A stretch of 64,000 nt of DNA from Sphingomonas cremea (GTDB taxonomy: Bacteria > Pseudomonadota > Alphaproteobacteria > Sphingomonadales > Sphingomonadaceae), in the NCBI RefSeq assembly GCF_021502585.1, contig NZ_JAKFGM010000002.1, positions 124,001 through 188,000 of the forward strand, written 5' to 3'. A program made the translations under genes and the position numbers. The notes beneath the pieces are model-generated. The model was not told where the DNA came from. It searched no databases and was given only the letters and a program-made list of their open reading frames with translations. Positions 23,694 through 64,000 of the stretch are shown here, in pieces; position 1 is the first letter of the stretch; each line of letters opens with the position of its first letter.

Positions 23694-24944
23694 CTATCGA
23701 TCGGGCGGTGTCCATTCAGCGGGCTCCACGTCCCTGCGGATGAGGCGTTGAGCGAGGCCGATTGCCGTTCCCACAGCTATCGCCACGGTCAAGTCGCTGA
23801 CCACGGTCAGGATCATGGTTAGCAGCAGGAGGAATCGGTCGGCGGGACGAGCTCGAAGATGCTCTCGCCAGCGATGGGGTTCACTCATCGACCAGGCCGT
23901 TACCATGAGCAGAGCGGCAAGAGCGGGCATCGCCAGATACCCGGCGAGCGGAGCAGCAGCGACGACGAAGACCAGAATTGCAAGCGCATGAACTATGCCC
24001 GCGACTGGCGTGCGCCCGCCGGCCCGCACATTGGCTGTAGTACGGGCGATAGCACCGGTCGCAGGAAGGCCGCCAAACAAGGGCGAAGCGATGTTGGCTG
24101 CACCTTGCGCCAGCAACTCGGCATTGGAGCGGTGGGCACCGCCTATCATTCGGTCGGCAACAATCGCTGACAGCAAGGATTCGACCCCTGCCAGGAACGC
24201 GATCACCAGGGCCGATGGAAGTAGCTCGCTCATCCGCGCGAGGGTGATTGCAGGAAGCGACGGAAACGGCAGTCCATTGGGAAGGTCGCCGAAGCGAGAG
24301 TGGATCGTTTCCACCGGGAGCGTGAACAGGGCGACTGCGGCGGATGCCAGGGCGATAACAATTATTGAGCCCGCCCGCCTTCGCAAAAGCGCGATCGCGA
24401 CGATCGAGGCAATGCCGATTACGGCAGCCACCAGACTTGCCGAATGTCGAGCAGCCCACAGGGCGGGGACGGTGTCGACGAAGTCGGCGGGCAATCTGGC
24501 GATTGAAAGTCCGAACAGATCCTTGAGCTGGCTAATTGCAATGATCAGCGCAATTCCAATCGTGAACCCTTCAATTACCGCTTCTGGAATCAGTGCGATT
24601 AAGCTGCCGGCGCGGGCCATGGCAGCAATGAGCAGGATCACACCGGCCATCAAAGTTGCTAGCAACAGGCCGTCAAACCCAAATTGATCGATCACACCAT
24701 AGACGACGACGATGAAGGCGCCGGTGGGACCGCCTATCTGGACGCGGCTTCCGCCCAGGGCTGAGATCAGCAGGCCTCCAACAATCGCCGTGACCAGTCC
24801 TGCCGCCGGTTCGGCCCCCGACGCGATGGCGATGGCGATACTCAACGGGAGCGCGACCATCGCCACGGTAATTCCAGCCAGAGCGTCGGCGAAAAAGAGC
24901 TTGGCGGAATAGTCCGTGATTGTGGTGAGCAGTTTTGGCTTCAT
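23694..24944 (-). CDS. SulP-family anion (sulfate-type) permease without STAS domain
   Basis: A 416-residue inner-membrane transporter. The SulP core is clear: DALAGITVAMVALPLSIAIA near residues 20-39, GGSRVQIGGPTGAFIVVVYG near 64-83, a long run of membrane segments, and SLLSAIVADRMIGGAHRSNAE near 258-278 with GLPATGAIARTTANVRAGGR after it. The protein ends shortly after the last membrane segment, so the cytoplasmic STAS domain usual in SulP proteins (which are typically well over 500 residues) is absent. Substrates in the family include sulfate, bicarbonate and other anions; sulfate is only a family-based guess. It stands alone. Confidence 0.86.
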   Translation of the reverse strand: MKPKLLTTITDYSAKLFFADALAGITVAMVALPLSIAIAIASGAEPAAGLVTAIVGGLLISALGGSRVQIGGPTGAFIVVVYGVIDQFGFDGLLLATLMAGVILLIAAMARAGSLIALIPEAVIEGFTIGIALIIAISQLKDLFGLSIARLPADFVDTVPALWAARHSASLVAAVIGIASIVAIALLRRRAGSIIVIALASAAVALFTLPVETIHSRFGDLPNGLPFPSLPAITLARMSELLPSALVIAFLAGVESLLSAIVADRMIGGAHRSNAELLAQGAANIASPLFGGLPATGAIARTTANVRAGGRTPVAGIVHALAILVFVVAAAPLAGYLAMPALAALLMVTAWSMSEPHRWREHLRARPADRFLLLLTMILTVVSDLTVAIAVGTAIGLAQRLIRRDVEPAEWTPPDR

Positions 24945-51098: not shown

Positions 51099-51138
51099 CG
51101 GGCGGCGCTTGGAGCTGGCCCAATCAAGAGCGCTGGTG

Positions 51139-51606
51139 ATGTCACGCATCATCCTGGCACTGGCGATCCTCGCTATTCCTGCAATGACTAGAGCGCAAAC
51201 CGGCGCCATCAAACCGATCCCGCGCGCGCAGTTCATTGCCGAAATGGACAGCCAGTTTCGAACGATAGACACCGACAAGAATGGACAACTGAGCCGAGCC
51301 GAGATCGAGCAATATCAGAAAGCTTCAGCCGACGCCGATGCAAAGGCACGCAACCGCGCCCTGTTCGCCGAGCTGGACGCGAACAATAATGGCCAGCTCA
51401 GCGCATCCGAATTCGCCAAGCTGACGGCGCCTGCCCCCGCCGCCGATGCGCAGCCGATGCTCATCCAAGAAGATAGCAATCGCGACGGTCAGATCAGCAT
51501 GGTCGAGCATCGATCGGCCACGCTCGCCAATTTCGACCGGCTCGACACGGACAGGAACGGAGTGGTGACCCCTGCCGAAATGAAGGCCGCTGGAATCTCG
51601 CGCTAG
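51139..51606 (+). CDS. Secreted EF-hand calcium-binding protein
   Basis: A 155-residue protein with a signal peptide ([20 protein letters not shown]) and four EF-hand-type loops: [36 protein letters not shown] and [12 protein letters not shown]. Each keeps the D-x-D/N-x-D/N-G pattern and the final glutamate, so calcium binding is likely. It resembles small periplasmic EF-hand proteins of sphingomonads. Its end overlaps the convergent cysNC gene by four bases. Confidence 0.83.
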
Positions 51607-53528
51607 CCGCGGGCCAGCAAAGTCTCGACGATTTTTTCCGCTGCCTGTTCGGCACTGAGTTGAGTCGTATCGATTCTCAACTCGGGATCCTCTGGCGCCT
51701 CATAAGGGCTGTCGATTCCGGTGAAATTGGGCAATTCGCCGGCGCGGGCCTTGGCATAGAGGCCCTTGACGTCGCGCCGCTCGGCTTCGCCCAACGGAGT
51801 GTCCACGAAGATTTCGAAGAACTCGCCATCAGGCACCATGTGCCGAACCATCTCCCGCTCGGCGCGGAATGGCGAGATGAAGGCGGTGAGAACGATCAGG
51901 CCGGCATCGGACATCAACTTCGCAACTTCGCCCACCCTGCGGATATTCTCGATCCGGTCGGTCTCGGTGAAGCCCAGATCCTTGTTGAGCCCGTGGCGAA
52001 TATTATCGCCATCAAGCAGGAATGTATGGCGGCCAAGCGCCGCCAGCTTCTTTTCGACTAGGTTGGCAATCGTCGACTTGCCCGCGCCGGAAAGGCCGGT
52101 GAACCAAAGCACGGCCGGCCTCTGGCCTTTCAATCGCGCATGGGTTTCCCGGCCGACATCAAGCGCCTGCCAATGTACATTTTCCGCCCGCCTCAACGCG
52201 AAATGCAGCATTCCGGCGGCGACAGTCGCGTTGCTGAGCTTGTCGATCAGGATGAAGCCGCCAAGCGCGCGATTGGGCGCGCCGCCATGATCGTCGCGAT
52301 AGGGCTCAAACACCAGTGCGCGGTCGGTAGTCACTTCGGCGACCCCGATCGCGTTCAGCTCGAGTGTCTTCGCGGCCAACTCCTCAAGCGTGTTGACGTT
52401 GAGTTGGTGCTTGGGGTGGGCCACCGTTGCCGTTGCGGTTTGCGTTCCGAGCTTCAGCCAATATCCGCGACCGGGAGTCAGCGGCTCGTCGGCCATCCAA
52501 ACGATCGTCGCTTCGAACTGGTCGGCGGCGTGCGGAGGGTCCTTGGCGGCTGCGATCACGTCGCCGCGTGAACAATCGACCTCGTCGGCCAAGGTCAGGG
52601 TAACCGACTGGCCGGCGACCGCTTCCTGCAAATCCCCATCCATTGTCACGACCCGGGCCAATTTGGTCATGCGCCCGGACGGCAGAATCCTGATGGCATC
52701 GCCCGGCGCGATGCGCCCGCTTGCAACCTGACCGGCAAAGCCGCGGAAATTCTGGTCGGGCCGGTTGACCCATTGCACCGGCATTCGGAACGGTTTGACC
52801 TCGTCCGCCGCACTATCGATCGGCACCGTCTCTAGATGCTCGAGCAAGGTCGGACCTGAATACCATGCCATGGCGCTGCCCGGCGCGGCGACATTGTCCC
52901 CACCAAGGCCTGACACGGGGATGGCGATCCACTCCGCGATCCCGATCTTCTCCGCGAAGGCCCGGTAATCGGCAACGATCGCATCGAACAAGTCGCGGTC
53001 ATAATCAACCAGGTCCATCTTGGTCACTGCCAACACCAGCCGGCGAATGCCGACCAGATTGGCCAGGATCGAATGGCGCCGGGTTTGCTCCAGCACGCCC
53101 TTGCGCGCGTCGACTAACAGCAGCGCGAGATCGGCCGTCGACGCGCCAGTGACCATGTTGCGCGTATATTGTTCGTGACCGGGGGTATCGGCGACGATGA
53201 ACTTGCGCTTGTCGGTGGCGAAGAATCGATAGGCGACATCAATGGTGATGCCTTGCTCGCGCTCCGCGCTGAGACCGTCGACAAGCAGCGCAAAATCGAT
53301 CTTCTGCCCCTGCGTCCCGACTTTGCGGCTGTCGGCTTCGAGCGCGGCCATCTGGTCGTCGAAAATCTGACGCGTCTCGTAGAGCAAGCGGCCGATCAAG
53401 GTCGACTTACCATCATCGACGCTGCCGCAGGTGATGAAGCGTAGCAACTCCTTGCTCTTCTGCCGCTCCAGATATGCAGCAATATCGCTGGCAATGAGGT
53501 CGCGCTCGGCGGCTAGGTGGAGGGTCAT
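51603..53528 (-). CDS. cysNC: Bifunctional sulfate adenylyltransferase large subunit/APS kinase CysNC
   Basis: A 641-residue fusion. Residues 1-450 are the GTPase subunit CysN: G1 GSVDDGKST at 35-43, switch [20 protein letters not shown], and NKxD-like TKMDLVD. From about residue 470 follows APS kinase (CysC), with Walker [30 protein letters not shown], and [20 protein letters not shown]. With CysD it makes APS from sulfate and ATP, and the kinase domain converts APS to PAPS. The start shares a base with the cysD stop. No APS/PAPS reductase is nearby. Confidence 0.96.
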
Positions 53529-54430
53529 CAGAAATAGCCCTCCTGCTTCTTCTTCTCCATCGAGCCGTCGCCGGCGTCACGGTCGATGATCCGGCCCTGC
53601 CGCTCGCTGGTTGTCGCCAGCAGCATTTCCTGGACGACCTTCTCGATCGTATCCGCCTCGCTTTCGACCGCGCCTGAAAGCGGGTAGCAACCAAGCGTCC
53701 GGAACCGCACGGAACGGGTTTCGACCTTCTCTCCGTCGCGAAGGCGGAAGCGATCGTCGTCGACCATCAGTAACAAGCCGTCACGCTCAACCACCGGCCG
53801 CGGTGCCGACAGGTAGAGCGGAACAATCTCGATGCCTTCGCGCATTATATATTGCCAGACGTCGAGCTCGGTCCAATTGCTGAGTGGGAACACCCGCATT
53901 GACTCGCCCGGCGCCTTGCGAACATTGTAGAGCGACCAGAGTTCGGGCCGCTGACGCTTGGGATCCCAGCGGTGGCTGGCTGAGCGGAATGAGAAGATGC
54001 GTTCTTTCGCCCGGCTCTTTTCCTCGTCGCGCCGGGCGCCGCCGAACGCAGCGTCGAAGCCGAACATGTCGAGCGCCTGTTTCAGCCCTTCCGTCTTCCA
54101 CAGATCCGTGTGCAGCGGGCCATGGTCGAACGGGTTGATCTCGCGAGCCTCGGCCTCCGGGTTTTTATGGACGATCAGCTCGATACCGTCCTCGCCCGCC
54201 ACCTTGTCTCGGAGCGCGTACATGTCGCGAAACTTCCAGGTGGTGTCGACATGGAGCAGCGGGAACGGGAGCGGCGCTGGATAAAATGCCTTCTTCGCGA
54301 GGTGAAGCATCACCGCGCTATCCTTGCCGATCGAATACAGCATCACCGGACGCGCCGCCTCGGCGACGGTTTCACGCATGATGTGGATGCTCTCGGCCTC
54401 AAGCCGGTCGAGATGGGAAAGCGCTCGCAT
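53528..54430 (-). CDS. cysD: Sulfate adenylyltransferase small subunit CysD
   Basis: A 300-residue PP-loop enzyme. The P-loop is [20 protein letters not shown] near residues 32-51. [20 protein letters not shown] near 130-149, [15 protein letters not shown] and [15 protein letters not shown] are characteristic of CysD. It forms ATP sulfurylase with CysN and acts in the cytoplasm. The gene follows the sulfotransferase by 44 bp and is coupled to cysNC by a TGATG overlap, so the three probably form one operon. Confidence 0.97.
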
Positions 54431-54474
54431 TCAGTTACCCAGACGGAAGACCGATTCCTCCGGTTGCCCTGCGC

Positions 54475-56685
54475 TTAGCCGTCCTTGCCCGCAATTGCAT
54501 CCGCCAGCGGCTTCAGCCCGTCACCATATTTTTTCCAGCGCTTCACCGCGGTTTTGTAGATCGGCTTGCGCACCTGGGCGACGCTAGCGGTTTTCACCGG
54601 CCGGTCGGACTTGTGGAACTCAAGGCATTTGTCGTTCCAGTCGAGGCCGATGAAGTCGATCAGCGCCTTTGCCTCCTTCTCGGTGTCGGCAATGACATTC
54701 TCGTAGACGACGGTATGGATCGTCCCCTTGGGAAGAACCTTGTCCCAATATGCCATCAACTCGCGGTATTTCCGGTAATAGCGGCCCAGCTCGGCGAGGT
54801 TATAGCTGTGCGGCATGTCGTCCTTGAACAGCTTGGTGAAGCCGCTGAGGCACGTGTCCACCGGATCGCGGGCGGTGTGGATGAACTTCGCCTTCGGGTA
54901 GAGAAGGTGGATTAGCCCGACGAAGAAATAGTTAGTCAGAAGCTTGTCGGTGATGCGCTTGGCATCGCCGGCGCCGTTGCTCAGCGCCACCAGGTAATTC
55001 TTGGCGACGATGTCGAGCTGGGCCGGGGTGATCTTCTCCATCATCTGCGGATATTTTGGCAGCGAAGGGAAGCGATCGCGCAGCTGCCCAAGGGCGCGGC
55101 TCAAATACTTGACTTCCCCGGCGCCATAAACGTCCGGATGGCTGGACAATATCTGTTCGACCAGGGTCGACCCGGATCGCGGCATTCCGATGATGAAGAC
55201 GGGACGCTCATCCTCGATTCCCGCAAACTTGCGATTGGCGAACGCTTCCTTCGGGAAGGCCGCGCGAATATTGTCGAAGAAACCGAAGGTCTCGGTCTCA
55301 TTATAGTCGAGCTGGGCGCGCTTCATGCGTCCGCCGACGATGTAATGATCCAGCGCCTTGGCATGCTGGCCGCGGTCCTCAAGTGCCTTGGCATAGGCAA
55401 AATGCAGCGGAAGGAGGTGCTCGGCTTCAAGATTCGAAGACGCCTCGAAGATCGCATCCATGCGGTTGAACAGCTCGTCGCCAATGTCTTTCGAGAAATC
55501 GACCAGGTCGTTGAGGTTGGCGTAGGCGCCGTACATCGTGTCGTTGAGCTTGAGCGCCTTCAGGATGAATTCGCGCGCCTCGTCGAGGCGTCCGACCGAC
55601 TTCAACGCCACGCCGTAGAAGTTGAGCGCCTCCGGATTGTCGGATTTCTGCTCGACCGCCTTGGCGAGCACCTGGATCGCCTCGTCGTAGCGGTCAGTCT
55701 CGTGTAGGACCTGACCAAGCAGGGTCAAAGCCTCGGCATTGTTCGGATCGCGCTTGAGTACGGCCCGCGTCGCCTGCTCGGCCGCCTGATGATTGTTGCG
55801 CCGGTTCTGGATGCGGGCGGTGATCAGCAATGTCTGGGGATTTTCGGGAGCGAACTTCAGCGCATCGCCAAGAATGCGTAGCGCATCGACCTCCTTCTTC
55901 TGCGCCGAATAGAGCAGGGCGAGATTGTTGTGTGCTTCGACATAGCGCGAGTTCTGCCCAATGGCCTTCTTCAGCGCATGCTCGGCTTCATCAAGTTTCT
56001 TATCCTGCTGCAACAGCGTGCCGAGGTTGTTATACGCCTCCGGATAAATTTCCCGGTGGGTCAGCGCTTCCTGATAGGCCTGCATCGCTCCATCAATGTC
56101 GCCCGTCATGCGCAACGCATTGCCAAGATTGTTCAGCGCTTCCGCCATCGTGGGGCGATTAGCGACCGCTCGGCGGTACAGTTCGACCGCTTCCTCATAT
56201 TTCCCCTGATCGTATCGGATGATCCCTAGATTGTTCAGCGCCTGGGAATTGTTGGGATCGATCTTGATTGCGGCCTCAAGCGCCTTGGCGGCTTCCTTCT
56301 GGTCCCCGCTCTGGCGAAGAACTTCTCCCAAGTTGGCGTGAATGCTCGCCGCTTGAGGCGCCAGTTTCACGGCACGGCGAAGCGACGCGATTGCCTCCTT
56401 CGACTGCCCCAGGGCATTCAGGCAAACCCCGATGATATTATGGGCGTCGGCATTGGCCGGTCTCGCCTCGATAATCTGGCGGCATACCCGCTCCGCCTGG
56501 CGATATTTCCCGTCACTGAACAGCTTCCCAGCCATGGCGATGGCCTTGGCCGGGGTCACGTTCACCCGGCCTTGCTGGGCCTTGGCAATCGTCTGATCGA
56601 GGGGACTGCCGCCGGGGATGGCGGCTTTCGGGGTGGCTGGTGACGCGCCTTGCGGATTGCGCTGTGCCGTCTTGGTGTTGCTCAT
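54475..56685 (-). CDS. TPR-containing sulfotransferase
   Basis: A 736-residue cytoplasmic-looking protein. Residues 45-390 hold about ten tetratricopeptide repeats (for example AEALNNLGNALRMTGDIDGA and AYNNLGTLLQQDKKLDEAE). A Sulfotransfer_3-type domain follows at about 490-715. The PAPS-binding motifs are clear: GMPRSGSTLVEQILSSHPDV (5' phosphosulfate loop, from residue 500) and TARDPVDTCLSGF (3' phosphate-binding, 604-616). It uses PAPS to sulfate an unknown acceptor, perhaps a protein recognised by the TPR part, in analogy to tyrosylprotein sulfotransferase. It heads the likely operon with cysD and cysNC. Confidence 0.93.
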   Translation of the reverse strand: MSNTKTAQRNPQGASPATPKAAIPGGSPLDQTIAKAQQGRVNVTPAKAIAMAGKLFSDGKYRQAERVCRQIIEARPANADAHNIIGVCLNALGQSKEAIASLRRAVKLAPQAASIHANLGEVLRQSGDQKEAAKALEAAIKIDPNNSQALNNLGIIRYDQGKYEEAVELYRRAVANRPTMAEALNNLGNALRMTGDIDGAMQAYQEALTHREIYPEAYNNLGTLLQQDKKLDEAEHALKKAIGQNSRYVEAHNNLALLYSAQKKEVDALRILGDALKFAPENPQTLLITARIQNRRNNHQAAEQATRAVLKRDPNNAEALTLLGQVLHETDRYDEAIQVLAKAVEQKSDNPEALNFYGVALKSVGRLDEAREFILKALKLNDTMYGAYANLNDLVDFSKDIGDELFNRMDAIFEASSNLEAEHLLPLHFAYAKALEDRGQHAKALDHYIVGGRMKRAQLDYNETETFGFFDNIRAAFPKEAFANRKFAGIEDERPVFIIGMPRSGSTLVEQILSSHPDVYGAGEVKYLSRALGQLRDRFPSLPKYPQMMEKITPAQLDIVAKNYLVALSNGAGDAKRITDKLLTNYFFVGLIHLLYPKAKFIHTARDPVDTCLSGFTKLFKDDMPHSYNLAELGRYYRKYRELMAYWDKVLPKGTIHTVVYENVIADTEKEAKALIDFIGLDWNDKCLEFHKSDRPVKTASVAQVRKPIYKTAVKRWKKYGDGLKPLADAIAGKDG

Positions 56686-56720: not shown

Positions 56721-56753
56721 AGAAAAAAGAAGAGGGAATTGCTTCCCTCTTCT
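56721..56753 (-). terminator. Strong rho-independent terminator downstream of the autotransporter
   Basis: A perfect 11-bp stem, AGAAGAGGGAA (56728-56738) with TTCCCTCTTCT (56743-56753), has a four-base loop. On the minus strand it is followed by a run of T (56727-56721 read as TTTTTCT). It terminates the autotransporter transcript before the sulfotransferase gene. Confidence 0.85.
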
Positions 56754-56835: not shown

Positions 56836-59800
56836 TTAACCGCGTTCCGGCTCCGGCGGAGGCGGCGGAGGCGGCGGAGGCGGCGGCGGCGGCGGGCAGG
56901 TATCCGTCGCCAGGATCACCGAACCGTCCGGGCAAGTCTGCGTCGCCGGTGGAGGCGGCGGCGGCGGCGGCGGCGGAGGCGGAGGCGGAGGCGGAGGTGC
57001 GCCGAAGGCCAACGCTATCGACCCGTAAACCGCATGGTCCTTATACTCGCTGTTGAATTGTCCCAGGTAGCCGATCCGGCCAGAGACATTCGACCCAAGC
57101 GCTCCGGCAAGGCTGAGGCCCGCCATGAAGGCACCATTCTTGCGATTTTCTTCCTTGCGGAAGTCGCTTCCGGACGGGGCGTCCGCGAACTCGGCATCGA
57201 CGCCGAGATCGCCGCCAAAGTTGTTGCGGTAAGCGATCTTCGCTTCCGGAATGATGCCGTTGTAGTTGCCGGTCCACTTGACGCCGATCACGCCGGACGT
57301 CTGGCTTTCGGTCTGACTGCCGAAGTGGAGATCCGCGCCGGTTCCGCCGTTTTCGGTGAACGACTGCAGCTTCATGCTGGTGTAGTCGATCGCCAAGTAC
57401 GGCGTCACCCACGACGATGACCCGACATTGAAGCGGTATCCGCCCTCACCATAGAAGGACCAGACATTGACGTCCGGATCGCCCTTGGCCGAGCCTTCGA
57501 TCGTCCCGATCGAAATGTCTCGGGTGCTGTTGCCGTCAAGGCTCGAGTAGCTGCCGATGCCGCGGACATACCAGGTGCCCACATCATAGGCGGCCGTCAG
57601 GCCAAGCTGCCAACCCTTGCCCTTGATCTTGCTGTCGACAAGGGCATCCGGGTAGTCGACATCCAGGTGGCGGTAACCGACGAACGCGCCGATCGTGAAG
57701 TGGCCCATCCGGTATTCACCGCCGAGCGTGCCCGCCCAGTGATTGCCGTCGTAGCCGATGGCGTTGTTGTTGCTGTCAAGCTTACCCCAGTTGTAATCGC
57801 CCATGAACCAGACACGACCCTGGTAGGTAGGATCGCTGCAATTCTCGATTCCGCGCAGGTCGATCGCGCAGTCGAGCTGGTCATTGACGAAGGTGTTCTG
57901 GACGAACGTGTTGTTCCGAACCGCGTGCAGGTAGTTCGGATACTCAACGCCGCTCAGCTGGTCATAGGCATCGAGCAGGTTGCCCAGATTGAGCGTGAAC
58001 AGCTCGGCAACGAGATTGCCGAACGGACCGGTCAGACCGACACCGTATACATTCTCGATCGCAGCCGCGACGGCTTCCTCGTTGTCCGTCAGCCCGGCGA
58101 CCGCGTCGAACGCAGTGCGCGTAAGGCCGAGGTCGACGTTCTCGGTTGCGTCGTAGGTGCAAGTCAGGCCGAGCAGCGGCGAACTGCCGTATGCTCCGCC
58201 CAGCGTGCAGCTGTCGAACGTGCCGTTGAGCGTGTTGGCGTCAATGACGTTGTTCCAGAAGTAGCTATTCGCGAACAAGCCATTCGGCGTCGTGATCCGT
58301 GCAACCAGGTTGCCGTCGATGTTCGCCGTGTTGGCGAATATCTGCGGATATGTGCCGATCGCCTGTGTTCCGCCAGCCGCTGGCTGCAGTTCGTAGATGA
58401 TCGTTCCGCCGGCGGCCTGGTTATAGGTGTCGACGAACACATAGGACGGACCGTCATAGGTGTTGGCAGGGCCGGAGACCCGGCGATCGCGCAGGAACAG
58501 CGCACCGTCGCCGGTGATGTTCATCGTGCCCTGGCCACAGGAGCTGGCTGCTCCATCGAACACCGGCGGCATGCACTCTGGGTTGACGATGCCGTCGAAG
58601 CTTGTCTCGCCATTGTCGACGTTGATCACGTCGCCCGAGACGATGTCGATGTTACCGTAGATGTTGCCGCCGCCCAGCAGGTTGAGAACGCTGTTGTTCG
58701 GCGCGGATGCGACATCAACCGCCATCCCGCGATGCCACGTGGCGCCGCCGTCACCCGACACCCGGACGATGATGTCGCCCGAATTGTTGAGGGTGAAAAG
58801 GTTGGCACCGCCGTTGCTCGTGCCATTGTTGGTGACGAGGATGCCGTTGGCGGATGCGTAACCACCCGGCGAAAGCGGATCGGTGACCGAGTCGCCATTG
58901 GCCGTGATCGCATCGACGTTGATCGATCCCGAGTTGTTCACGGTCATCGTATTGCCGGCGGACTCGAGGTAGATGCCGGTAGCCGTCGCATTGCTCAAGG
59001 CACCGACAAGCGTCGTGGCCGTGGTTCCGACACCGACAACCGTCGTGTAAGTCCCGCCGGCTGCGCTGGCGATCGCTGAAATGCTGCCGCTGTTGTCGAT
59101 GGTGCCGGTGAGGATCGCCCCTGCCGTGCCGTACGCCTGGCCCGAGACGGCGACCGCGAAGGCGTTTGCGGTGCCGGGCGAGACCGCAATCGCCGAGGCT
59201 GCGAAATCGCCGCTATTGTCGAACTCGATCTCGCCACCGACGCCGCTATTGAAGTCGATGTCGTCAGCGTAGACTACGGCACTGGCAAAACCGGTAGCTC
59301 CGCTCGCTACGGCCGTCGCTGCGGCGGTAAAGCTGCCGCTATTGTCAACGTTCACCAGCTGCGTCCCAAGACCGTTCATGTTCTGGTAGATGCCGGTGAC
59401 CGTAGCGGTTGCCTGGCCATATTCATCGCCAGTCGCATTGGCGACCGCGTTCAACGAAACGCTGCCGCTGTTGGTGATGTTCGATACACCTGCGGCGGTG
59501 CTGTTTATGTTCTGCCCGAAGCCAGCAACATAGACCGTCGCCGTGGCGCTGTTCGCGGTGCCAACTGTGCCGGCCACGGCGGTGGCTGCGCCGGTCGCGG
59601 TGATCGAGCCGCTGTTGTCGATCGTAGCGGTCTGTGTCGCGCCATCCATGTCCTGCGAAACTACCGTGCCGCCTGCAGTTGCAATTGCATCGTCAGCCCC
59701 GCTCGCAAAAGCCGCCGCGTCAATCGTCAGCGTGCCGCTATTGTCGACCGAGGCAATCCCGACCGGTGCGGTGACATCCTGGGCAATCAACGAGAACGCC

Positions 59801-62800
59801 GAGGCGGAAGCCTGGGCATCATTTGTCGCCGCGATCGCGTTGGCTGCGACGTTGGCCGTGATGTCACCGCTGTTGGTGACAGAAGCCGTACCAGCCGCAG
59901 TCCCGCTAACGTCCTGGAGCAAGCCGTCGTTGACAGTCGCCTGCGCTACGGCCGATGAGCCGCTGGCATTGGCACTCGCGTCGAACGTGACCGTGCCGCT
60001 GTTGGTGAAGCTTGCGCTAGCAGTCGCGCCGGTTGCTGACTGGTAAATACCCGTAATCGCCGCCGTCGCCGAAGCGAAGGTCGATGCCGTCGCATTGGCA
60101 ACCGCATCCATATTGATCGTGCCGCTGTTATCCAGCGTCACGGTCGAGCCATAGGCTCCCTGGAAAATACCAGAGTCGATATGTGCGTAGGCAAGGGCCG
60201 TCCCGCTCGCGCCGACTGCATCGGCGAAGGCGCCGATATTGATCGTGCCGCTATTGGTCAGAGTGACCGAGGCATCACCGCCGCCGGTTGCACTTGCCGT
60301 CTGGTAAATGGCGCTCTCAGCCTCTGCCGAAGCCGATGCTCCGGTGCCGCCGTGGGCAACCGCAGTCGCGGTATGGTCGAGGGTGCCGCTATTGGTCAGC
60401 GTTACCGTGGCATCACCGCCGCCGAAGGCTTGTGCCGTCTGCGACAGGCCGCTGTCGACTAGCGCTGAGGCGTCAGCATAGCCGAACGCCGCATTGGCGG
60501 ACGCCACGGCATTCAGGGTGACAGTGCCGTTGTTGACTAGGTCTGCCGACGCGTTGCCGCCAGCCGATGCCGAGGCAAATTGCTGGATGCCTTCGCTAGC
60601 AGTAGCCACCGCAGTTGCGTTTCCTGCTGTCGTATTGGTGGCGTTGGCTACCGCCGATGCAGCAAGTGAGACCGAACCGTCGTTGGTGAGCGTAATGACC
60701 GCATCGCCGGTGTTTGCGGACGCATCTTGCGAAATACCGCCGGTGATGCTGGCTGCCGCGTTAGCGTTGCCCAAGGTAGCCGTCGCGCTTGCGACCGCGC
60801 TTATGTCGATTACACCGGTGTCGCTATTGGTGAAGGACGACGTCGCGTTGCCCGAGCCATTCGCGCTAGCCGATACTTCGACTGCGCTGAACACGGAAGC
60901 GTCTACGTCGGCGCTGGATCCGGCGCCGTGAGCGACTGCAGCCAGCGTGATCGTGCCGCTGTTGGTCAAGCTTGCCGACGCGTTTCCGCTGCCATTGGCC
61001 GTGGCGCTGAGGTCGAAGCCGTCATCAACTTCGACGCTGGCATCCGCAAAGGTGACGGCAGTTGCGTTACCAGTCGCCGACATGTTGATCGAGCCGCTAT
61101 TAGCGAGCGCGACACTGGCATCGCCGGCGCCCGACGCGACAGCAACCATGTCAATCACATCGGAAACCGTGGCTTGGACGTCAGCCGAGCCTTGTGCATT
61201 TCCGGTTGCCAGAGCTGAGAAGGTCAACGTTCCGTCGTTGGTCAGGGCAACGCTGGCATTGCCGTCGGCCGCCGTCGCATTTTGGCTGATGCCGGTGTTG
61301 ATCGAGGCGGATGCAAGTGCGTCGGCGGTGTTAAGGGTGGCATTAGCCAGCGCATGGACCGAGAAGTCCATCGTTCCGCTGTTGGTCAGTTCGACCGACG
61401 CGGCGCCCGTGCCGCCAGTCACCGAGGCAGTCTGATTGATCGCCGAACTGATCGTCGCTCGGGCACTGGCGCCGGCGCCGCCCTGGGCGGTCGCGTCGAG
61501 TGCGACATCGATCAAGCCGCTGTTGGTCAGGTCAACGGATGCCGATCCGCCGGCATCCGCGCTCGCATATTGGCTGATGGCCGCCTCAAGCGTGGCGCTG
61601 GCCGAAGCCGTTCCCGTGCTGACCGCGTTCGCGCCGAGCTCTACGGCGATCGTGCCCTGGTTGTCGATGCTGGCGCTCGCTGCCCCGCTCTGGGCGTTTG
61701 CGCTCTGGTCGAGCAGGACTGATGCGTACGCAGTTGCATTAGCAATGGTTACGCCATGGGCCGTAGCATTAACCTGCGCACTGAGTACGCCAGAGAAAGC
61801 GGCGGTTCCCGTTCCGCCGGCCGCATTGACGAGCGTTAGAGAGGCATTTCCAGTGCCAGTGGCATTTGCTTCCTGGACGATGATATTCGTCGCGGAAGCA
61901 TAAGCATTCGCCGTGTCGCCTTCTGCTGAGGCAATGGCCGTCAGGCCGATGCTGCCGTTGTTGGTCAGCGACGCCGAGGCGTTACCATCAGCCGTCGCGG
62001 AAGCATATTGTGCAACGCCGTCGTAGGCGTAGCCGTTTGCGTTGGCCGATGATCCGTCGGCATTGGCGCTGCCGCCAACTGAGATGTCGCCATTGTTGGT
62101 GAGCGTCGCGGAGGCATTGCCGTCGTGCGCAACGGCCGACTGGTATACGCCGTAGGCTGTTGCCGTCGCATTGGCCGTGGCGCCGATTGCGCCGGCTACT
62201 GCGTCGACGTCGATCGCTCCGTCATTGGTAATCGACGCTGTGGCGTCGCCGCTTGTCGCGGTTACATCCTGGTCGATGGCCGAAGAGACCAAAGCATACG
62301 CATTTGCGGCCGAGGAGGCGACTGCGTTCGCGACTGCGTCGATATTGAGTGTACCGACATTGGAGATGCTCGCGCTCGCATTGCCATCTGCCGCAGTGAC
62401 ATTCTGGACAAGGCCATCGTTGACCGTCGCATTGGCGTTCGCGTTGGTGGCGGAAGTGCCGCTCTTGGTTCCATGGGCACTCGCATCGGCCAGCACGTTG
62501 ATCGTACCGTCGTTGGTGATCCCAGCGACTGCATCGCCGATCCCCGTCGCGCTGGCATTCTGGCTGATCGCATAGCTTACGTACGCATTGGCGTTCGCCG
62601 TGGCGTAGGCGCCCGCGTCGGCAAGGGCTGAAACGTTGAGCGTGCCATTATTGTCATAGCTCGCGTCGGCAGACGTCACGCCTGTCACATTCTGCTGGAC
62701 GCCGTCAGCATTGGCGTTCGCCGTTGCGACCCCGCCGATGCCAGTGGCGGAAGCATTCGCAGACGCGTCAAAGCTCACCGTGCCGTCGTTGACCAGGGAA

Positions 62801-64000
62801 GCGCTGGCAGAGATGCCGCTCGCGTTCTGCACGAGGCCCGGTACGCTGGCGCTCGCCAATGCAGCGAGGGTGCCGGCGGCGCTGGCGATCGCAGCGACGT
62901 CGATCGTGCCCGCGTTCGTCAGGCTGACGCTGGCCGAAGAGCCAACTGCAGTTTGCGCAATGACGAGACCGGCGTTGGCAATGGCGTGGGCAGTGGCCCC
63001 TGACTTGGCAAGTGCGACTGCGCTCTGATCGATTGAGCCGTTGTTGGTGAGCGAAGCGGCTGCTGTTGCACCAACCGCGCCGGATTTGATCCCCGTGGCA
63101 ACATGCGCGGAGGCGGAAACAAACCCGGCAGTGCCGACTGCAGCCGCGAAAGCATCAATGCCAATGTCGCCATCGTTGGTTAGCGAGACGCTTGCGCTCG
63201 AACCCAGTGCGTAGTGGCCGATTCCGGTGCCGACGGTCCCATGCGCGAACACGGATGCACCGCCAACGGCGGTCGCACCCGCCGAAATATCGATAGTTCC
63301 TGCATTGTCGAGTGCCGCAGACGCGACGCTCCCCGACGCATTCTGCGAAATGCCGACTCCGACGCTTGCGGAGGCAAAGGTGCCGAAAGACGAGCCGTTT
63401 GCGGATGCGTCGGCGCCGATATTGATCACGCCGCCGGCCAGGTTGCTAAGCGTAATGGCTGCCGCGCTTCCGGCATTTGCGTCCTGGACAATACCGAAGT
63501 TTACGGTGGCGAAGGCATCAGGGGATGTGCCTATCGGAGCTGTCGCGAGGGCATGAATATCCAGGGAACCGGCGTTGGTTAGGTCTACCGACGCATTGCC
63601 TACTGCATTGCCTTGCTCGAACACACCGGTCTGCACAAGTGCGTTGGCGGTATTGGTTCCTGACGTCGCTTCGGCAGCAATCTGTACGGAGCCGTCGTTG
63701 ATGAGGCTCATGCCGACGTCCCCGGCGAACGTTGGCTGCGGCCCGACTGCTGTCGCGACATATCGAACTTCGCCGGTCAGGACACTGTTGACAGTGGAGG
63801 CAGGGAAACCTCCGCCGCTATTGTAGACGCCAAAGTCGAAGTCGTCGCCAATGTTGCTGATGACGAGCGTATTGTTGGTGACATTCGGCCCGACAATTAA
63901 CGCGCCGATGCCTGGTTGGGTCGCAGCTTGTGCCGGCAACGCCGCGCCAAGTGCTGAAATGGATGCGCCCGTGAAAAGTGCAATGCGGCGGTTGAAGCTC
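56836..64000 (-). CDS. Giant Ala-rich autotransporter (5' end beyond the window)
   Basis: The reading frame is open to the window edge. Upstream of the first start-like codon (TTG at 63939) it encodes RRIALFTGASISALGAALPA and QAA, the end of a signal peptide, so the true start lies beyond 64000. More than 2,370 residues are visible. The passenger contains about 37 repeats of about 45 residues, each with an N-x-G-T/S-I/L-type turn, as in secreted beta-helices. A unique region with VDTYNQAAGGTIIYELQPAA follows, then the autotransporter beta-barrel (from about RVWFMGDYNWGKL to DHAVYGSIALAFGA). After the barrel a tail of about 55 residues holds two polyproline runs flanking CPDGSVILATDTC. It is translocated to the cell surface; its role is unknown (adhesion is usual for the family). 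Confidence 0.9.
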   Translation of the reverse strand, partial: SFNRRIALFTGASISALGAALPAQAATQPGIGALIVGPNVTNNTLVISNIGDDFDFGVYNSGGGFPASTVNSVLTGEVRYVATAVGPQPTFAGDVGMSLINDGSVQIAAEATSGTNTANALVQTGVFEQGNAVGNASVDLTNAGSLDIHALATAPIGTSPDAFATVNFGIVQDANAGSAAAITLSNLAGGVINIGADASANGSSFGTFASASVGVGISQNASGSVASAALDNAGTIDISAGATAVGGASVFAHGTVGTGIGHYALGSSASVSLTNDGDIGIDAFAAAVGTAGFVSASAHVATGIKSGAVGATAAASLTNNGSIDQSAVALAKSGATAHAIANAGLVIAQTAVGSSASVSLTNAGTIDVAAIASAAGTLAALASASVPGLVQNASGISASASLVNDGTVSFDASANASATGIGGVATANANADGVQQNVTGVTSADASYDNNGTLNVSALADAGAYATANANAYVSYAISQNASATGIGDAVAGITNDGTINVLADASAHGTKSGTSATNANANATVNDGLVQNVTAADGNASASISNVGTLNIDAVANAVASSAANAYALVSSAIDQDVTATSGDATASITNDGAIDVDAVAGAIGATANATATAYGVYQSAVAHDGNASATLTNNGDISVGGSANADGSSANANGYAYDGVAQYASATADGNASASLTNNGSIGLTAIASAEGDTANAYASATNIIVQEANATGTGNASLTLVNAAGGTGTAAFSGVLSAQVNATAHGVTIANATAYASVLLDQSANAQSGAASASIDNQGTIAVELGANAVSTGTASASATLEAAISQYASADAGGSASVDLTNSGLIDVALDATAQGGAGASARATISSAINQTASVTGGTGAASVELTNSGTMDFSVHALANATLNTADALASASINTGISQNATAADGNASVALTNDGTLTFSALATGNAQGSADVQATVSDVIDMVAVASGAGDASVALANSGSINMSATGNATAVTFADASVEVDDGFDLSATANGSGNASASLTNSGTITLAAVAHGAGSSADVDASVFSAVEVSASANGSGNATSSFTNSDTGVIDISAVASATATLGNANAAASITGGISQDASANTGDAVITLTNDGSVSLAASAVANATNTTAGNATAVATASEGIQQFASASAGGNASADLVNNGTVTLNAVASANAAFGYADASALVDSGLSQTAQAFGGGDATVTLTNSGTLDHTATAVAHGGTGASASAEAESAIYQTASATGGGDASVTLTNSGTINIGAFADAVGASGTALAYAHIDSGIFQGAYGSTVTLDNSGTINMDAVANATASTFASATAAITGIYQSATGATASASFTNSGTVTFDASANASGSSAVAQATVNDGLLQDVSGTAAGTASVTNSGDITANVAANAIAATNDAQASASAFSLIAQDVTAPVGIASVDNSGTLTIDAAAFASGADDAIATAGGTVVSQDMDGATQTATIDNSGSITATGAATAVAGTVGTANSATATVYVAGFGQNINSTAAGVSNITNSGSVSLNAVANATGDEYGQATATVTGIYQNMNGLGTQLVNVDNSGSFTAAATAVASGATGFASAVVYADDIDFNSGVGGEIEFDNSGDFAASAIAVSPGTANAFAVAVSGQAYGTAGAILTGTIDNSGSISAIASAAGGTYTTVVGVGTTATTLVGALSNATATGIYLESAGNTMTVNNSGSINVDAITANGDSVTDPLSPGGYASANGILVTNNGTSNGGANLFTLNNSGDIIVRVSGDGGATWHRGMAVDVASAPNNSVLNLLGGGNIYGNIDIVSGDVINVDNGETSFDGIVNPECMPPVFDGAASSCGQGTMNITGDGALFLRDRRVSGPANTYDGPSYVFVDTYNQAAGGTIIYELQPAAGGTQAIGTYPQIFANTANIDGNLVARITTPNGLFANSYFWNNVIDANTLNGTFDSCTLGGAYGSSPLLGLTCTYDATENVDLGLTRTAFDAVAGLTDNEEAVAAAIENVYGVGLTGPFGNLVAELFTLNLGNLLDAYDQLSGVEYPNYLHAVRNNTFVQNTFVNDQLDCAIDLRGIENCSDPTYQGRVWFMGDYNWGKLDSNNNAIGYDGNHWAGTLGGEYRMGHFTIGAFVGYRHLDVDYPDALVDSKIKGKGWQLGLTAAYDVGTWYVRGIGSYSSLDGNSTRDISIGTIEGSAKGDPDVNVWSFYGEGGYRFNVGSSSWVTPYLAIDYTSMKLQSFTENGGTGADLHFGSQTESQTSGVIGVKWTGNYNGIIPEAKIAYRNNFGGDLGVDAEFADAPSGSDFRKEENRKNGAFMAGLSLAGALGSNVSGRIGYLGQFNSEYKDHAVYGSIALAFGAPPPPPPPPPPPPPPPPPATQTCPDGSVILATDTCPPPPPPPPPPPPPPEPERG
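58770..63705 (-). repeat. About 37 degenerate repeats of about 45 codons in the autotransporter passenger
   Basis: Each unit encodes a motif like LTNSGTINI or LTNDGSVSL, then Ala/Ser/Asn-rich strands, a GIxQxAxA-like segment and a GxAxASxT return. Counting the N-x-G turn motifs gives about 37 units, spaced 43-47 residues apart. The units are diverged at nucleotide level, which argues for an old array with constant length. Confidence 0.85.

Follow-up and report, generated by a model that had tools for sequence, protein, structure and literature searches.

A sulfotransferase operon with its own PAPS supply in Sphingomonas cremea: a candidate protein sulfation unit

A 64,000-nucleotide stretch of the Sphingomonas cremea genome (NCBI RefSeq assembly GCF_021502585.1, contig NZ_JAKFGM010000002.1, positions 124,001 to 188,000; the whole stretch is called the window below) encodes, in succession on one strand, a sulfotransferase fused to tetratricopeptide repeats (TPRs), CysD, and a CysN-CysC fusion, the latter two being the enzymes that make 3'-phosphoadenosine-5'-phosphosulfate (PAPS). 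We read this operon as a PAPS-supplied protein sulfation unit, probably acting on tyrosines of outer-membrane proteins, and give that reading a probability of about 0.57. The evidence comes from a genome that encodes PAPS synthesis and lacks the known enzymes for reducing it, from the kinship of the sulfotransferase domain to protein-tyrosine sulfotransferases, and from sister enzymes encoded beside TonB-dependent receptors with many tyrosines in acidic surroundings.

Results

The operon and its conservation

The CysD and CysN-CysC families carry out established chemistry, in which sulfate and ATP give adenosine-5'-phosphosulfate (APS) and then PAPS. An initial annotation, made from the letters of the window, had described the one-strand series of TPR-sulfotransferase, cysD and cysNC; its coordinates, the 44 bp gap and the TGATG overlap of cysD and cysNC proved exact, and family searches bear out the gene identities. 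Absent from that annotation is an autotransporter gene, which we found directly upstream of the sulfotransferase gene. The order of transcription on the minus strand is autotransporter, a gap of 150 bp, TPR-sulfotransferase, a gap of 44 bp, cysD and cysNC. The features are as follows.

51603 to 53528, minus strand: cysNC, fusion of the ATP sulfurylase GTPase subunit and APS kinase, 641 aa (NF004035, 1027 bits; PF01583, 7.2e-68)
53528 to 54430, minus strand: cysD, ATP sulfurylase small subunit, 300 aa (NF009214, 520.6 bits; TIGR02039)
54475 to 56685, minus strand: TPR-sulfotransferase, 736 aa (TPR Pfam families; PF13469, 4e-45)
54631 to 55203, minus strand: sulfotransferase domain PF13469, residues 495-685 (Pfam match, solved-structure alignment)
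55546 to 56553, minus strand: TPR superhelix, residues ~45-380 (Pfam TPR families, single-sequence AlphaFold2 model)
56728 to 56753, minus strand: terminator-like hairpin and T tract in the gap that separates autotransporter and sulfotransferase (terminator scan, folding)
56836 to 64000, minus strand, with the ATG at ~64005: autotransporter, 2389 aa, with a signal peptide predicted by eye and a repeat-rich acidic passenger (PF03797)
57067 to 57813, minus strand: autotransporter beta-barrel domain (PF03797)

The autotransporter gene thus starts 5 bases beyond the window edge and has its stop at 56836. PF03797 matched at 4.1e-49 in a family search of the C-terminal 419 aa; the whole open reading frame (ORF) of 2367 aa, searched in the same way, matched no family.

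Among the matches listed, orthologues of the TPR-sulfotransferase occur in 11 other genomes of the 71 in the genus, with 65-75% of residues identical along almost the entire protein (G and L numbers below are our handles for genomes and loci). The order sulfotransferase-cysD-cysNC recurs in 10 of these 11, with gaps of 44-83 bp and then -1 to 0 bp when start codons are placed by homology, and this recurrence argues that the arrangement is not due to chance. G265 is the exception: its sulfotransferase does not adjoin cysD, and its cysD-cysNC is found close to a helicase-S4-ferredoxin block (L148), a location shared by many genus genomes (here and below, the labels helicase, S4, M23, ThiC, ClpB, YchF, cytochrome b and 2-oxoglutarate (2OG) oxygenase were given by eye only). 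In G234, G077 and G211 (L151, L152 and L157) cysD-cysNC has as its divergently oriented neighbor the gene of another sulfotransferase, 31-34% identical, and this is a second form of the linkage between PAPS genes and a sulfotransferase.

An autotransporter gene lies directly upstream of the sulfotransferase in six of the seven orthologous loci that reach far enough (G231, G251, G216, G265, G202 and G215), the pair being kept in G265 even away from cysD. In G202 the two genes are ~1.1 kb apart, in G215 the contig ends within the autotransporter barrel, and in four loci the contig ends ~300-570 bp upstream. The autotransporter of the window carries a poly-proline tail behind its barrel (within 56836-57040), in which two proline runs flank a short stretch that contains Cys; such a tail, which seems unusual for an autotransporter, is also present in L079 and L083 and absent in L080.

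PAPS synthesis without known genes for sulfate reduction

Searched in full (2.55 Mb, nine contigs, an estimated 100% complete), the genome has a single match to PF01507, a family that covers both CysD and CysH, and this match is CysD; PF01077, the siroheme sulfite/nitrite reductase domain, had no match (cysJ was not searched for). In control genomes PF01507 matched 14 of 14 and PF01077 11 of 14. Of the assimilatory pathway the genome therefore has ATP sulfurylase (CysD/CysN) and APS kinase, and neither CysH nor a siroheme sulfite reductase. The initial annotation had remarked that cysH, cysI and cysJ are absent from the window and had left their place elsewhere in the genome to be checked; by PF01507 and PF01077, cysH and a cysI-type sulfite reductase are absent genome-wide. 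Lacking both, PAPS cannot reach cysteine by the known reductive route. The suggestion that sulfate activation here feeds sulfation rather than only cysteine synthesis is accordingly supported in a stronger form than it was made, namely that the PAPS made here very probably serves sulfation and nothing else.

The same holds for most of the genus. A second PF01507 match of CysH length was found in 8 of 71 genomes (G209, G212, G216, G225, G244, G247, G248 and G264), and PF01077 in exactly the same eight; weak extra PF01507 matches in G201, G236, G245 and G263 (best 2.7e-10), where PF01077 is absent, were not taken as CysH. The other 63 genomes have neither cysH nor PF01077, and of these 56 keep CysD and 58 keep APS kinase. 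At the level of the family, 180 of 199 genomes have at least two PF01507 matches (the second not confirmed as CysH in each).

In the genus, 67 of 71 genomes have PF13469 sulfotransferases, this one with eight matches. CysD, APS kinase and any PF13469 match are all missing from three well-assembled genomes (G220, G222 and G227). Among 53 good genus genomes, 48 have both APS kinase and PF13469, one the kinase only, one the sulfotransferase only and three neither (Fisher p 7e-4); among 187 good family genomes the corresponding counts are 174, 6, 2 and 5 (p 5e-6). These p-values are optimistic because related genomes are not independent. Each of the six kinase-only genomes of the family (G024, G109, G112, G162, G170 and G181) has at least two PF01507 matches, and the two sulfotransferase-only genomes (G025 and G143) are fragmented into 380 and 320 contigs. 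In another genus (our g54), G186 has one PF01507 match, APS kinase and a sulfotransferase, and all three are absent from G053 and G129. Overall, with exceptions, genomes tend to keep or lose APS kinase and PF13469 sulfotransferases together. The assimilatory clusters of six of the eight cysH-bearing genomes encode a CysN of 540-564 aa that has no APS kinase match in the locus map; an assimilatory CysN without the kinase, if real, would mean that APS kinase is dispensable for assimilation in those genomes.

CysQ (TIGR01331) was tried as a further marker of PAPS use and set aside: it matched all 53 good genus genomes, including the kinase-free ones, and is therefore uninformative. The SulP family (PF00916), which has one member in the window (23820-24896, minus strand) and three matches in the genome, occurs in 38 of the 71 genus genomes with no evident pattern or link to the PAPS genes.

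A TPR arm joined to a domain resembling tyrosylprotein sulfotransferases

The C-terminal domain of the enzyme is PF13469, and no glycosyltransferase or heptosyltransferase domain appeared among the best 25 of 42 Pfam families matched. In a search of solved sequences with the sulfotransferase domain, ten matched, and seven of them are protein-tyrosine sulfotransferases. These seven include all of the top six matches (2.8e-12 to 2.1e-9), among them 8w5z (2.8e-12) and the tyrosylprotein sulfotransferases (TPSTs) TPST2 (4e-10) and TPST1 (2e-9). Residues R503, G505, T507, E524, K581, R606 and S701 are unchanged in all 78 aligned domains from the genus, S701 lying just outside PF13469. We take R503, E524, K581 and S701 to correspond to R78, E99, K158 and S285 of TPST2. 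The PAPS-binding loop and the presumed catalytic residues of a PF13469 sulfotransferase are thus in place.

In the single-sequence AlphaFold2 model the TPR part is predicted mostly at 80-96 in the predicted local distance difference test (pLDDT) and forms 10 TPR hairpins by our own count of helices. Residues 454-736 fall below a pLDDT of 50, and the modelled sulfotransferase domain is unusable. A contig scan returned 12 loci, all matched within residues 17-478, ahead of the sulfotransferase domain, and was not used further.

Many sister sulfotransferases adjoin TonB-dependent receptors

Sister enzymes offer an indication of the substrates. We hand-picked 62 loci among the matches listed (three from this genome and 59 from relatives), in which a simple ORF caller, on which the gene counts depend, called 65 sulfotransferases in 60 loci, overlooking those of L182 and L207. 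A TonB-dependent receptor is the immediate neighbor of 41 of the 65, on the same strand in 39 cases and with same-strand gaps mostly of 20-220 bp; Pfam confirmed all four of the receptors tested. Of the 124 genes at distance one from a sulfotransferase, 40 encode receptors, vs 13 of the 438 at a distance of three or more (odds ratio 15.6, p 1.7e-18). The sister loci form 18 context groups, 11 of which include a sulfotransferase-receptor pair, and the p-values for these loci treat related loci as independent.

The receptors in these pairs are also distinctive in composition. Counting as acidic-context tyrosines those with at least three acidic residues within five positions, and excluding receptors of 600 aa or less, 39 paired receptors have 6.24 per 1000 aa and 24 other receptors 1.84 (p 1.2e-6). 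The receptor of L182 was counted as unpaired, its over-extended start being overlapped by the coordinates of a sulfotransferase match. Animal TPSTs favor an acidic context. A recurring tyrosine- and acid-rich stretch, e.g. SDYTDYADAYDAYYE, marks the main receptor subfamily (n = 27, of which 26 are paired and the 27th lies beside an overlooked sulfotransferase). We guess this stretch to be an outer loop; a search of solved structures with a receptor gave an alignment covering the plug and residues 613-706, from which the position of the motif in the barrel is not readable. Receptor subfamilies 1 and 2, which have both paired and unpaired members, show no clear difference in tyrosines.

Within this genome, further TPR-sulfotransferases adjoin TonB-dependent receptors on contig C1 (L123:8538-12870 and L124:5224-15745), one locus having the order receptor-sulfotransferase-sulfotransferase-receptor on one strand. 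On contig C3 (L125:2125-10224) a TPR-sulfotransferase, TPR proteins and a 2OG-Fe(II) oxygenase-like gene lie near a ClpB-like gene, and sulfotransferases lie near a similar ClpB-like gene in relatives (L151, L157 and L206).

The pairing extends to plasmids. Among 72,556 plasmid records, the three nearest relatives of one such paired receptor are from Novosphingobium (37-40% identity over 94-95% of the length; two of the three are near-identical in the matched stretch), and each adjoins a sulfotransferase, which on N. pentaromativorans pLA3 stands between two receptors. Receptor-sulfotransferase pairs also occur on plasmids of N. capsulatum, Pseudoalteromonas (Gammaproteobacteria) and Asticcacaulis. 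From 19 plasmid loci (two receptors each in L241 and L245; none in L258, nor in L256, where the annotated receptor was not caught), nine paired receptors, counted with the same length limit of 600 aa, average 6.8 acidic-context tyrosines per 1000 aa vs 2.7 in ten unpaired ones (p 0.005, with several close kin among them). The Asticcacaulis plasmid locus (L256, 471-8339) encodes in succession a TonB receptor, a small sulfotransferase, an aspartyl/asparaginyl beta-hydroxylase, a sulfotransferase and a further sulfotransferase, so that one receptor is accompanied by several enzymes of peptide modification.

Genomes without PAPS genes offer a further comparison. A conserved site between cytochrome b and ychF holds a sulfotransferase-receptor pair in many relatives; in G220 and G222 it measures ~2 kb and contains neither member of the pair. 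The site was not found in the stretches examined from G227 and G232.

Discussion

A proposed model for protein sulfation

Gene order, the missing cysH and sulfite reductase, the partial joint loss of APS kinase and sulfotransferases, the catalytic residues, the pairing with outer-membrane proteins and the acidic tyrosines can be read directly from the sequences; the activity, the tyrosine acceptor, the identity of the substrates and the compartment are inferred. CysD and CysN would activate sulfate and CysC would phosphorylate APS to PAPS; with cysH and sulfite reductase gone, PAPS would be kept as sulfuryl donor for the PF13469 sulfotransferases. The TPR arm would hold an outer-membrane protein, still unfolded, in the cytoplasm ahead of its export by Sec, and the TPST-like domain would there sulfate its exposed tyrosines or, with lower probability, other hydroxyls. 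In the window, gene order makes the upstream autotransporter the most likely partner of the enzyme, and sister enzymes would modify the adjoining TonB-dependent receptors on a loop of the type DYTDYxDAYDxxYE.

Parts of this model differ in strength. The TPST-like domain, the pairing with outer-membrane proteins and the acidic tyrosines of paired receptors make a protein substrate plausible, and there is a good chance that the acceptor molecule is a protein or peptide. Support from sequence comparison is fairly good for the receptors as substrates. That the acceptors are specifically tyrosines of outer-membrane proteins would be a little short of an even bet, and that the adjacent autotransporter is the substrate of this particular enzyme is doubtful.

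Several observations pull the other way. Concerning the autotransporter, the sulfotransferase of G236 is not preceded by one; in G221 cysD is immediately preceded by an autotransporter, without an intervening sulfotransferase (likewise in G241 by the listed coordinates); and smaller barrel genes precede cysD in G199 (PF03797) and, judged by similarity, in G204 and G208. Autotransporter and sulfotransferase are separated by a hairpin with a T tract here and in three of five relatives examined (L074, L075 and L079; it is absent in L080 and L083), so that the two transcripts may be separate or only partly coupled. The terminator scan listed this hairpin on the plus strand, in a region with 5 such sites vs 5.5 expected in shuffles; the 146-nt gap itself folds far better than its own shuffles (z -6.15). 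The autotransporter has only two tyrosines with at least three acidic neighbors in 2389 aa (2-11 in six relatives). Its passenger is strongly acidic overall (139 D/E vs 12 K/R), and almost none of its 38 tyrosines is in acidic context. This scarcity makes the autotransporter uncertain as a substrate.

On the receptor side, a short tyrosine pattern found in 26 of 39 paired receptors vs 1 of 24 unpaired ones (that one being a miscalled receptor) was devised after the receptor sequences had been viewed. Of the 39 paired receptors 26 belong to one subfamily, of which the tyrosine loop could be a trait unrelated to sulfation. A tighter tyrosine pattern did not separate plasmid receptors (2 of 9 paired vs 1 of 10 unpaired), among which the paired receptor of L246 has 2.3 acidic tyrosines per 1000 aa and the unpaired one of L243 has 7.4. 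A receptor of the sulfotransferase-free genome G222 (L266) has nine acidic tyrosines.

As for PAPS supply, G232 has cysD and APS kinase with no PF13469 match, and G259 shows the opposite. Partial PF01583 matches of 23-34 bits, above the cut-off, occur in the assimilatory CysN of G225, G247 and G248 and could be either a kinase relic or a cross-match. G216 has cysH and sulfite reductase elsewhere in its genome, yet its one CysD and its one APS kinase are both in the operon; by gene content, this single cysD-cysNC must be supplying the cysH/sulfite reductase pathway too. Among solved relatives, a polyketide-synthase sulfotransferase domain scores 2.9e-9, so near to TPST1 that the leaning of the domain towards protein-tyrosine sulfotransferases is moderate. 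The position of TPST R101 is K in this enzyme and its clade (12 of 78 domains in all) and P in 42 of 78.

Alternative explanations

The PAPS might instead serve to sulfate a small molecule, a lipid, a carotenoid or an envelope glycan, the closeness of the genes reflecting a shared surface function. Erythrobacter flavus is reported to contain sulfated carotenoids, with zeaxanthin being sulfated by an extract (PMC6627997); the polyketide-synthase domain among the solved relatives and a separate PF13469 class in frames of ~410-450 aa within the genus would fit such a role. We consider it unlikely, given that 41 of 65 sister enzymes adjoin receptor genes and that a TPR arm with a TPST-like domain suits protein substrates. 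The operon neighbors that were identified (not all were searched) are an autotransporter, an EF-hand protein and a ferredoxin, with S4, helicase and ThiC recognized by eye.

A ribosomal peptide or ligand handled by the receptor or autotransporter is the main alternative acceptor, as in Xanthomonas, where RaxST sulfates a secreted peptide encoded nearby (PMC8872720). Suggestive of this are the Asticcacaulis plasmid, in which two sulfotransferases and an aspartyl/asparaginyl hydroxylase follow a receptor, and, in Pontixanthobacter relatives (PMC10040529), consecutively numbered gene clusters for which lasso-peptide biosynthesis protein B2, two sulfotransferases and an aspartyl hydroxylase are listed. 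The same-strand gaps of mostly 20-220 bp leave scant room for a gene between the members of a pair (short ORFs were not searched), and the acidic tyrosines sit in the receptors themselves; we regard a peptide acceptor as improbable.

That cysD-cysNC is a remnant of assimilation or supplies an unrecognized reductase, its adjacency to the sulfotransferase meaning little, is very improbable: many genus genomes without this sulfotransferase do have cysD-cysNC near the helicase-ferredoxin block, and G216 draws on the same genes, but this genome has no PF01507 match beyond CysD and no PF01077, no PF01507 match among those listed has an internal stop codon, and the keeping of CysD in 56 of 63 genomes without cysH and sulfite reductase, together with the joint loss of PAPS genes and sulfotransferases, argues for selection.

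Comparison with known systems

To our knowledge, bacterial protein tyrosine sulfation is essentially one known system, RaxST/RaxX, and genes for autotransporter heptosyltransferases adjoin those of their autotransporters. The nearest working system to the protein sulfation unit proposed here would be RaxP, RaxQ and RaxST of Xanthomonas, in which PAPS from ATP sulfurylase and APS kinase feeds a tyrosyl-protein sulfotransferase that modifies an exported product (PMC4216712, PMC8872720). Like the Rax system (RaxP, RaxQ, RaxST, RaxX and RaxAB), the locus described here combines PAPS-making genes with a sulfotransferase. Unlike it, the PAPS genes and the sulfotransferase share one operon, the sulfotransferase has TPRs, the presumed partners are outer-membrane proteins, and the genome lacks cysH and sulfite reductase. 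Neither type I secretion genes nor a RaxX-like peptide was recognized by eye among the neighboring ORFs of at least 80 aa, to which this inspection was confined.

With animal TPST1 and TPST2 the putative enzyme shares a homologous domain (E 2.8e-12 to 6e-8) with the PAPS loop, Glu, Lys and Ser in place, and receptors paired with sister enzymes share the acidic tyrosine context; it differs in its TPR fusion, its bacterial origin and the replacement of R101 by K (mostly by P in sisters). The nearest gene arrangement is that of TibC/TibA and AAH/AIDA-I, bacterial heptosyltransferases that modify autotransporters (PMC4358343): here too the gene of a modifying enzyme adjoins that of a repeat-rich autotransporter, with a different catalytic domain that is predicted to add sulfate, not heptose. 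CysD and CysN-CysC belong to the same families as in the cysDNC of assimilatory sulfate reduction, in contrast to which this genome is without cysH and sulfite reductase. Titles and the beginnings of abstracts, in a search that left most subscription journals outside, contained no description of receptors or autotransporters paired with sulfotransferases, or of cysD/cysNC serving sulfation in the absence of cysH.

Neighboring genes

EF-hand proteins are encoded on both sides of the cassette, at ~51130-51606 (plus strand) and at L219:2363-2899 (plus strand; this second one by similarity and eye). Past the former lies the ferredoxin, S4 and helicase block that adjoins cysD-cysNC in many genus genomes, and past the latter a ThiC-like gene.

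Significance

If the proposed unit works as outlined, the sulfation of surface proteins would be a largely unknown habit in bacteria. By keeping PAPS synthesis while mostly losing sulfate reduction, the genus provides a natural experiment in which sulfation can be viewed as a role by itself, and the sulfotransferase-receptor pairs suggest substrates that can be tested at the level of single residues. We tentatively suggest that sphingomonads and other Proteobacteria may possess a general system of outer-membrane tyrosine sulfation, in which TPR-TPST genes adjoin those of their targets, acidic tyrosine clusters are sulfated in the cytoplasm before export, and whose importance in this genus made PAPS synthesis outlast sulfate reduction. 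Gene neighborhood would then be a rule for predicting sulfation substrates. Should receptors and adhesins indeed carry sulfotyrosine, sphingomonad models of TonB-dependent uptake, of phage and toxin binding and of surface charge would need revision.

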